Shown piece after piece: positions 23,119 through 26,184 of a stretch of 64,000 bases of DNA. Location of the stretch: positions 248,001-312,000 of the forward strand of contig JAPEHQ010000002.1 of assembly GCA_027405735.1 (NCBI GenBank). The letters run 5' to 3'. Numbering within the stretch: the first letter of the stretch is position 1; the number at the start of each line of letters is the position of its first letter. The notes under the pieces are model-generated. The model saw only the letters and a program-made list of their open reading frames with translations, was not told the DNA's origin and made no database searches. The stretch is from Mucor racemosus. Its lineage: Eukaryota > Mucoromycota > Mucoromycetes > Mucorales > Mucoraceae. The position numbers were made by a program, and so were the translations under genes.

Positions 23119-23779
23119 ATGCTTTTACGTTTTGCAAAAAGATTACCAGCAAAAGGATATTTACTGTTAAATACTCGGCGACCTATTATTAAACCCTTGA
23201 TTGTTACAAAACTTATGTCTACTAAAACTGATTCTGAATGGCAAGTCGTTTTGACTCCAGAGCAATTTCGTGTGCTTCGTCAAAAAGGTAAAACTTGTGT
23301 CTTCTTCTTAACATGACAATGGATTACTCATTGTTTGAAATATGTATCATAGGAACGGAAGCGCCCGGAACAGGCGAATATAATAAATTCAACAAAAAGG
23401 GTAATATACTATAACTAGATGTTTGAATTCTCTGCTGATCTTATCTATCATTACATAGGCGTTTATCATTGTGCTGGTTGTGATGCACCTCTTTATGTTT
23501 CGGATACAAAATTTGACAGCAATTGCGGATGGCCCGCTTGTGAGTATAATTTTATAATAAGATAATTTATATATAGTACTAATTGATATCTTAGTTTTTG
23601 ACAGTATTCCAGGTGCACTTGTTCGCCATGAAGATAATACTCATGGTATGCAAAGAATCGAAATTTGTTGCGCTAAATGTGGTGGACATCTCGGACATGT
23701 ATTTAAAGGAGAACATTTCCCTACACCTACTGATGAAAGACATTGCGTTAACAGTATTAGCCTTAAGTTTAAAGAATAA
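23119..23779 (+). CDS. msrB: Peptide-methionine (R)-S-oxide reductase, MsrB
   Basis: Four exons, 23119-23287, 23353-23400, 23459-23539 and 23595-23779; 160 aa with all junctions in frame. Family landmarks in order: [11 protein letters not shown], zinc-binding CAGC, the GWPAF segment spanning the last splice, [13 protein letters not shown], a second zinc pair CAKC with GGHLGHVF, and [11 protein letters not shown], in which Cys150 is the expected catalytic Cys. MsrB reduces methionine-R-sulfoxide in oxidised proteins using thioredoxin. The first about 33 residues are basic and hydroxylated with no acidic residue ([10 protein letters not shown]), consistent with a mitochondrial presequence. A second ATG at residue 33 (MSTKTDSEW) could give a cytosolic form. 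Confidence 0.95.
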
Positions 23780-24211
23780 ATATTCTGCTTGCATCAGTTG
23801 ATAAAGATCAGGTTTTCTGACATTTTTGCTATTTCCGTAATCAATATCATTGGTGATTTCTCGTTTGTTGTTTGTATTGTATGCATAGAAATAAAAAGTA
23901 TGATCTTATACTTACCTTGTGAGTTTCATATTCAAGAAATCGAGAAGAAGAAAAACGTCATTTGTGATGACCTTTTTATTTGTATATCAAAATGGAAGAA
24001 AAGAAAAAACTTATCTATTATGGATGCACAGATGTTTATATTTCATGCGAGATCATTTCAAAATGCAATTTCCCAAATCAAGCAATCCTTCATTAGAGAT
24101 CCGCATCTTTTGACTCATCTATGGGGACTGTCCATATCTTATCTATCTACATCGCCATAAAAAGAAACTAGGGCAACATCTTTTCTTCCTCTCCCCCTCA
24201 CCTATATCACT
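23780..24211. other. Intergenic DNA between MsrB and SPX-SerB
   Basis: Probable MsrB 3' end and SPX-SerB promoter. The CT-rich tract just before the ATG (24181-24200) is typical of fungal promoters. A 123-codon frame at 23789-24160 lacks an ATG and any recognisable feature. Confidence 0.5.
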
Positions 24212-26184
24212 ATGAAGTTTGGAAACTATCTTGAGGAGAGAAAATCTCAATTACCAACAGAATACTCAGAAAATTGTATTGACTACAATAGCTTGAAATC
24301 CTTTTTAAAATCAGATGTTTATTCACATTCGATTAAACTCGAAAATACAGAAAAGCAGCAGCCATTTGCACAATTGGTTTCCGAGAGACTTGGTCAATTA
24401 CAAAAGTGTGAAGTTGTATTCATCGAAAAATTAGATGCTCAAGTTGAAAGAGCTACTCAATTCTTTGAAAAAGAAACAAAATCACTTACATCTTCAACAA
24501 CTGATTCATCAAATGAAACGGCCTTGGATTTACTCAAAAAGATCATCACATTAGAGCGATTTGTATTCTTAAATTACACTGGTATCACTAAAATCCTCAA
24601 AAAGAATGATCGCCATTCCGGCTTATCATTGTCTGAACCCTATTTGCAACGAGTTGCTGCTTTACCCTTGGTGAGAGGAGAAGCATTGACTCAATTGAAA
24701 CGCAGTGTCATGAGCAAGTTAAATAATCAAACTCCTGAAACAAAGCCATCTCCCATCATGGTTAGAAGTCGCTCATCTCAAATCAACCCTTCTTCGGCTT
24801 TGCCTCCCACATTTGTTGGCCCAAATCAAAAAGTATTGGTATCTTTATCTGGTCCTCATGGCACAGATATTGTAGGAGCTGTGCTTGATTGTCTTGCCCG
24901 TCATCCTTGTGCTATTGATGATTTCATGCTTTCTCGTCTTTATCACAATGTCACATTTGGTGTGTTGATTACATTGCAATCTGATAATGTAGCTGTATTC
25001 CGTGATCTTGCTGAAGCTGCTCAGAAATGGGATGCTACATTAACCTATGATATCCCCGATTCACAAGCAACAGAACCATTGATTCGTGAGCAGAAAGAAA
25101 AGATCAAGAAAGAAAAGCGTACTTCTACTTCTTCAACCGCAAGCACCCCTGTTTATATTCCTCCTTCTTTGGAAGAAGCTCCTTACTCTGAACGTGTCAA
25201 ATATGCTGCCACTATTTTAAATCAAAATGGTCTCAATTCTACTTTCTTGAGTGAGTGGACACAGCTTTTGTTAAAACATCATATTTCTGTAGAGAAAATG
25301 ATTCGTTTGAATAGAGATAATGATAAACTTTCGTGTGCTGATCTTCGTTTGAGTGTTCCTCGTGGTATGGATATGAGTGCATTGCGTACTGAATTGATTG
25401 GTTTGTCTACAAGTTACGGTACTGATATTGCTTTCCAACGTGATGATGTGTTCAGAAAGAATAAGAGATTGGTGGTATTTGATATGGATTCGACATTGAT
25501 TTATCAAGAAGTCATTGATGAAATTGCTAGACATGCTGGTGTGGTAGATCAGGTTTCTGTAAGTAAAATTAGTTGGGATGTAAACATCTGTGTTGATTCA
25601 TGTCTTTATAGGCTATTACTGAAGCCGCTATGAATGGTGAAATTGATTTCAAAGAATCATTACGTCGTCGTGTTGCTCTTTTGAACGGTACAAGTGTTGG
25701 CGTATTAGAAAACGTCAAACAAATCCTTACATTTACAGAGGGTGCCCGTTTCTTGTGCCGCGCTTTGAAAAAACTTGGATTCAAATTGGCAGTTATCAGT
25801 GGTGGTTTCATGCCATTAGCACTTTACGTTAAAGCCGAATTAGGATTAGATTATGCTTTTGCTAATCAGTTGGAGGTCTCATCAGATGGACTTACACTTA
25901 CTGGTAAGACAATTGGCCCTATTGTAGATGGTATTCGTAAAGCAGAATTATTGGATGTCATTGCACAAGCTGAAGGATTATCTTTAAAACAAGTCATTGC
26001 TGTTGGTGATGGTGCAAATGATTTATGGATGTTGAATAAGGCTAGTCTTGGTATTGCATTTAATGCTAAGCCTCGTGTACAAGAGCAAGCAAGAGCTCGA
26101 ATTAATCAAAAGAGTTTGAAATATGTCTTGACATTGCTTGGCTACTCGGAGCAAGATATGGAAGAGTTGGGAGCAAATAATTAG
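24212..26184 (+). CDS. SPX domain fused to phosphoserine phosphatase (SPX-ACT-ACT-HAD)
   Basis: Two exons, 24212-25558 and 25612-26184; 639 aa. Residues 1 to about 155 form an SPX domain: MKFGNYL start, Tyr25 and Lys29 in the helical hairpin, and the Lys cluster KILKKNDR (Lys127, 130, 131) that binds inositol pyrophosphates in this family. Residues about 205-280 and 325-405 resemble paired ACT regions of SerB. Residues 421-630 are a HAD phosphatase: FDMDST (Asp424 nucleophile, Asp426), ISGG (Ser512), Lys559, and GDGAND (Asp582, Asp586). The C-terminal part should hydrolyse phosphoserine to serine and phosphate, the last step of serine synthesis. The SPX part could couple this to phosphate status. 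Both halves lie in one 1,347-bp exon, so the fusion does not depend on a splice guess. Catalytic residues look intact. Confidence 0.92.

Follow-up and report, generated by a model that had tools for sequence, protein, structure and literature searches.

Introduction

Mycobacterial SerB and SerB2 place a phosphoserine phosphatase domain behind an ACT region (ACT-ACT-PSP; solved as 3p96 and 5is2), and SerB2 activity is reported to depend on both the ACT domains and the oligomeric state (PMC10564941). In MtSerB2, two ACT-domain glycines, G18 and G108, are described as needed for binding serine, the enzyme's inhibitor, with G18 placed at the turn following strand 1 (PMC4270767). D17 and I126 are the proposed contacts in M. 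avium SerB, whereas a later SerB2 study implicated E33, R103 and T136 instead (PMC10564941). The protein described here, which we call SPX-SerB, has the same phosphatase domain behind its ACT region, with the catalytic residues kept. The mycobacterial enzymes differ in lacking an SPX domain and in their ACT1 loop, where the DQPG linked to serine binding stands in place of the HGTD of SPX-SerB.

Three other groups of proteins invite comparison. Vtc4 and Vtc2-3 likewise have an N-terminal SPX domain with the same pocket residues and act in phosphate metabolism, but their catalytic domain is unrelated and its product is polyphosphate, not serine and phosphate. In Gde1-type proteins an SPX domain is attached to a phospho-ester-splitting enzyme, as in SPX-SerB, although Gde1 is a glycerophosphodiester phosphodiesterase and not a HAD phosphatase; we take 5ijp, named only as a "putative uncharacterized protein", to be the SPX domain of a fungal Gde1. 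The SPX-less SerB proteins of fungi (Aspergillus, Tuber, Lichtheimia, Gigaspora), of which yeast Ser2 is one, share the phosphatase domain and the pathway step with SPX-SerB but have no SPX domain. The roles ascribed to SPX proteins are the movement of phosphate across membranes, its conversion to polyphosphate or metabolites, and phosphate-dependent control of transcription (PMC10511240).

No published description of an SPX-SerB fusion was found in the titles and abstract openings of the open-licence papers listed by literature searches, and one may have been reported elsewhere. The word "phosphoserine" is absent from a survey of nutrient signalling in mycorrhizal fungi (PMC8401276) and from PMC11528361, PMC12653687 and PMC13412362, and PMC7381174 uses it only for another enzyme's substrate. 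Database entries already display both domains through automatic Pfam annotation. The remark in the original prediction, that the pairing is not among the known SPX architectures, agrees with the lack of a description in the papers listed, while the databases co-annotate the domains automatically.

Results

An SPX domain and a phosphoserine phosphatase are encoded in one gene

We analysed a 64,000-nucleotide stretch of Mucor racemosus DNA (the window), a piece of contig C2 in a genome of 53.2 Mb and 54 contigs. The SPX-SerB gene occupies 24212-26184 on the forward strand, as are the exons, intron and domains given below, and encodes a product of 639 aa in two exons. Exon 1 (24212..25558), in whose single open frame 24212 is the earliest ATG, encodes residues 1-449, comprising the SPX domain, a linker, ACT1, a second ACT-like region and the start of the phosphatase. 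A 53-base intron (25559..25611) follows, with donor GTAAGT and acceptor TATAG; its removal preserves the frame, and the joined exons give a full-length match to the serB model TIGR00338. Exon 2 (25612..26184), also matched by TIGR00338, supplies the remaining phosphatase domain with ISGG, R558-K559, GDGAND and the stop codon. The coordinates and exon structure first proposed, with one continuous exon running over SPX, the ACT-like regions and the HAD start, are correct, and the residues singled out at the time (Y25, K29, K127, K130, K131, FDMDST, ISGG and GDGAND) are all present in the translated protein. The nearest public protein, labelled Mucor circinelloides, shares 97% identity from end to end and has the same fusion.

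A Pfam scan finds SPX, ACT and HAD domains above their cut-offs in this one protein. The SPX domain (24212..24676, residues 1-155), which had been named from its letters alone, is recognised by PF03105 at 33.3 bits over the full protein, rising to 39.6 bits for residues 1-203 by themselves (cut-off 27.8). Solved structures concur, with 11 distinct sequences matching residues 1-180; these include 7d3y (SPX domain-containing protein 2, E 1.2e-9), Vtc4 (E 2e-5), Vtc3, 7e40 (SPX domain-containing protein 1) and solute carrier family 53 member 1. We take 7d3y and 7e40 to be rice proteins and the solute carrier to be XPR1. Behind a poorly conserved linker (24677..24820, residues 156-203; mean conservation 0.51, with 90% or more reached at 4 of its 48 positions) lies ACT1 (24821..25051, residues 204-280), matched by ACT_6 at 32.3 bits against a cut-off of 23.

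The paired ACT-like regions of the original prediction hold in part. ACT1 is a Pfam domain, whereas the second region (approximately 25169..25441, residues 320-410) has no Pfam match in the 639-aa protein and is only partly covered by the alignment of the solved SerB chain 3p96 to residues 376-634 (E 3e-60). The start of the phosphatase domain (25454..25558) contains FDMDST, in which D424 is encoded at 25481-25483. The domain scores 76.9 bits with the haloacid-dehalogenase hydrolase model of Pfam (cut-off 26.4) and, from residue 405, 262 bits with the equivalog-level NCBIfam model TIGR00338 (cut-off 144). We rejected a gene-model error or a chance match on the basis of the profile scores, the single exon and the conserved relatives. 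We conclude that an SPX sensor domain is fused to a SerB phosphoserine phosphatase in one protein.

The fusion is found in several early-branching fungal groups

A search for relatives gave 1967 matches. Of the best 120, 110 have PF03105 in their annotation. In 98 of these it is combined with PF00702, and the remaining 12 are fragments of 450-484 aa limited to SPX and ACT, close to the length of the long first exon. Pfam calls no SPX in the other 10 of the best 120, and 6 of those are also unmatched by an SPX profile built from the family. The whole fusion is carried by Mucorales, Umbelopsis, Endogone, Jimgerdemannia, and Mortierella and its kin; by Rhizophagus, Ambispora, Diversispora, Geosiphon and Basidiobolus; and by Spizellomyces and other chytrids, Piromyces, Thamnocephalis, Syncephalis, Martensiomyces and Coemansia. 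These bearers belong to Mucoromycota, chytrids, gut fungi and Zoopagomycota. The architecture is therefore present in Mucoromycota and beyond, and the original prediction, which spoke of a single lineage, was too narrow. The contigs behind ten relatives of 614-650 aa and one of 571 aa measure at most 1878-2303 bases, sizes that suggest assembled transcripts, which would then be single mRNAs spanning the fusion.

The putative ligand pocket is invariant

The ligand pocket of SPX domains is described as sitting between helices 1, 2 and 4, and in Vtc2, K127 belongs to a lysine surface cluster with Y22 and N121 nearby (PMC10167327). Y25, K29 and the K127/K130/K131 cluster of SPX-SerB align with Vtc4 and 7d3y, and K33 does so less clearly. 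We treat all six as putative pocket residues. We examined their conservation in 98 relatives of at least 570 aa, drawn from the best 120 of the 1967 matches. Counting relatives with a letter at the position, Y25, K29 and K33 are unvarying (94/94 each), as are K127 and K130 (97/97) and K131 (98/98). The remaining 24 Lys, Arg, Tyr and His residues in positions 1-155 are conserved to anything between 8% and 99%, and a rank test separates the six from them at p = 1e-4, uncorrected for kinship.

No loss of a pocket-equivalent residue was seen in the 98 full-length relatives, which bears out the claim that the sensor residues are intact. Taken as a whole, the SPX domain shows weaker conservation than the phosphatase, with 31 of its 155 positions reaching 90% or more against 148 of 211 in the phosphatase, a point that counts against regulation of the enzyme through SPX. 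As to which SPX family the domain came from, the profile of the SPX-SerB family matches each of eight SPX loci taken from the genome weakly, with best scores of 25 to 39 bits. We predict that the SPX domain of SPX-SerB senses inositol pyrophosphates.

The catalytic set is complete and the ACT1 loop is altered

The DxDxT, Ser, Lys and GDGxND catalytic set is present in SPX-SerB and in every one of the 98 relatives, with D424, D426, S512, K559, D582 and D586 each at 98/98 and FDMDST likewise unvarying. By motif, these residues are equivalent to D185, D187, S273, K318, D341 and D345 of MtSerB2, the ones mutated in the mycobacterial enzyme (PMC4270767). The phosphatase domain is expected to be a phosphoserine hydrolase.

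The ACT1 loop, by comparison with bacterial SerB, has changed. HGTD (24857-24868, residues 216-219) replaces bacterial DxPG without a gap in SPX-SerB and in 98/98 relatives; in the same ungapped alignment, Desulfuromonas, Geoalkalibacter and Galdieria have DxPG and Agarophyton has DVPR. From its described position and the residue numbering, we take G18 of MtSerB2 to be the glycine of DQPG and D17 to lie in the same loop. The ACT1 glycine essential for the ligand is then not kept in SPX-SerB. Because HGTD stands where bacterial SerB has DxPG, a canonical ACT1 serine site is doubtful in this family, and serine may bind elsewhere.

Across all 343 proteins found, 116 match the SPX profile, and all 116 have HGTD. 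Another 45 match the ACT1 profile but not the SPX profile; 30 of them have HGTD, 11 have DxPG and 4 have neither motif. These profiles are derived from the SPX-SerB family itself. HGTD is also invariant throughout the fungal family, including the fungal relatives annotated without SPX.

A single serB was found beside serA, serC and IPK- and PPIP5K-family kinase genes

Searching the genome with TIGR00338 places only the SPX-SerB gene, with both its exons, above the cut-off, and no second SerB over the cut-off was found. Outside this gene, the two best hits (33 and 31.7 bits) have the sequence of P-type ATPases; a further ten score lower, at 24.5-28.3 bits. SerC has one place in the genome and SerA two strong places, one of them above cut-off. 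The equivalog match, together with the position of this gene as the only serB found beside serA and serC, leads us to expect that SPX-SerB makes serine.

Kinase families that make inositol pyrophosphates are present, with IPK-family kinases in four places and PPIP5K-type kinases in two. SPX matches number 28 when counted per exon and including SPX-SerB itself. Together, the SPX, IPK-family and PPIP5K-type places form an elaborate phosphate-signalling set.

The surroundings of the gene were also inspected. No CACGTG lies upstream of SPX-SerB nearer than 21922. A Gcn4-like TGACTCA occurs at 24111-24117, about 95 bases ahead of the start codon, but carries no weight because the window holds 8 such sites against 7.56 expected by chance. 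Just upstream on the same strand, an open frame at 23561-23779 resembles the final part of a methionine sulfoxide reductase of the MsrB type. A defence-library scan of the nearest relative gave no match.

SerB without SPX suggests possible losses

PF03105 is found in 0 of the 120 matches listed for an ascomycete SerB query (Geopyxis, query included), and the family SPX, ACT1 and ACT2 profiles match none of the 110 new proteins among these listed relatives. This absence covers the relatives listed for the ascomycete query, with Basidiomycota, Saccharomycotina and most outgroups lying outside the matches listed. A length-limited search yielded 113 new proteins, of which 2 match the family SPX profile. 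Amoeboaphelidium has two proteins (315 and 373 aa) without SPX. Lichtheimia, Circinella, Fennellomyces, Gigaspora and Dentiscutata have proteins annotated without SPX, whose N-termini start just ahead of ACT1. Since SPX is absent from the listed relatives of the ascomycete query and, by annotation, from Lichtheimia, Gigaspora and others, SerB can evidently persist without it, which weighs against regulation through SPX.

We built a quick tree of the phosphatase part from 78 proteins, the query and 77 picked by hand from the 343. SPX is present in 36 and absent in 42, although several of the latter are short or partial (for example Racocetra, Anaeromyces and Gonapodya) and their lack of SPX may reflect truncated models. 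The label changes at least 7 times on this tree, against a mean of 26 after shuffling, and 3 of these changes are forced by well-supported branches. Lichtheimia, Circinella and Fennellomyces are nested in an SPX-bearing group with support of 99, and Gigaspora, Dentiscutata and Racocetra in another nesting with support of 97. Ascomycete SerB forms a separate long branch, and the deep forks lack resolution.

The nested SPX-less proteins suit a loss of the domain, with missed exons as the alternative. Two SPX-less entries, from Rhizopus stolonifer and R. microsporus, probably have misplaced starts: the first Met of the former corresponds to an internal Met of the query, and the latter has query-like residues before that Met. 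An origin of the fusion near the base of Fungi, followed by later losses, is reasonable but unproven.

Discussion

The sequences establish the fusion, its spread among relatives and the intact pocket-equivalent and catalytic residues; the role of the SPX domain is a proposal. We consider it more likely than not that inositol pyrophosphates regulate SerB through SPX and so control the final step of the phosphorylated pathway of serine synthesis, at which inorganic phosphate is set free. Under ample phosphate, the SPX domain would be occupied by these ligands, with 1,5-InsP8 the most likely one. In the simplest mechanism, the occupied domain would alter how the ACT and phosphatase domains are arranged, and thereby activity. 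We infer that phosphate status gates serine synthesis in these fungi. The invariant pocket agrees with this reading, as do the finding of no second SerB above cut-off and the IPK- and PPIP5K-family kinases of the genome. Against direct gating, SPX domains can also work through partner proteins and not on the enzyme to which they are attached.

The direction of such control is finely balanced. Inhibition by the bound ligand, relieved when phosphate is short, is slightly more likely; we lean this way because serine synthesis gives phosphate back to the cell. In yeast, all three inositol pyrophosphates measured drop upon phosphate withdrawal, 1,5-IP8 by 75% within 30 min (PMC10511240). In work on yeast metabolism, serine synthesis is counted as a source of phosphate and predicted to rise under phosphate limitation (PMC7864628), so that a ligand-bound SPX domain would be expected to restrain the enzyme. 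The opposite sign, in which the ligand activates as it does in VTC, is by that analogy nearly as plausible.

The alternative that survives best is that SPX is a docking or localisation module, which would position the enzyme through SPX-SPX contacts or through vacuolar or PHO-pathway partners and leave catalysis unaltered. The mechanism proposed for VTC, in which the ligand on SPX breaks SPX-SPX contacts, is of this kind (PMC10167327), and the linker between SPX and ACT1 is long and variable, as docking would allow. However, SPX adjoins regulatory ACT domains, and the mycobacterial members of the family are described as allosterically controlled (PMC4270767, PMC10564941). We therefore regard docking as unlikely, though it is the main competitor of direct gating.

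To our knowledge, no partner protein of SPX-SerB has been described. It is less probable still that SPX-SerB is a sensor first, signalling the phosphate or serine state elsewhere, with a phosphatase that is secondary or acts on another phospho-compound. HAD phosphatases do vary in substrate, and the pocket and the catalytic residues are both invariant in the 98 relatives, as a signalling role would have it; the equivalog match far above cut-off and the standing of the gene as the only serB found in a genome having serA and serC argue against it. That SPX is a passenger, a degenerate remnant or a product of gene-model error we think very improbable: its scores are modest, and it escapes Pfam in 10 of the best 120 relatives and the family profile as well in 6 of them, but SPX and ACT share one stop-free exon, SPX and phosphatase occur together in 98 of those 120, the pocket is invariant, and ten full-length relatives come from contigs of about transcript size.

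A bolder reading takes the exchange of DxPG for HGTD together with the addition of SPX. Early fungi could have remade a serine-sensing SerB as a valve that senses phosphate, with inositol pyrophosphates directly setting the flux through the final, phosphate-yielding step of serine and one-carbon supply; this is a tentative scenario, which we hold less firmly than the gating itself.

SPX-SerB is a real and widely shared architecture, and its predicted function, a phosphate-gated serine step, is likely. A conserved SPX domain on the sole SerB found would mean that phosphate signalling directly reaches amino-acid and one-carbon metabolism and, if the gating is true, that inositol pyrophosphates directly and allosterically control amino-acid synthesis. 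The idea that phosphate-releasing biosynthetic steps are tuned to phosphate supply becomes testable with one purified enzyme. The bearers of the fusion include mycorrhizal Rhizophagus, whose symbiosis centres on phosphate handling.
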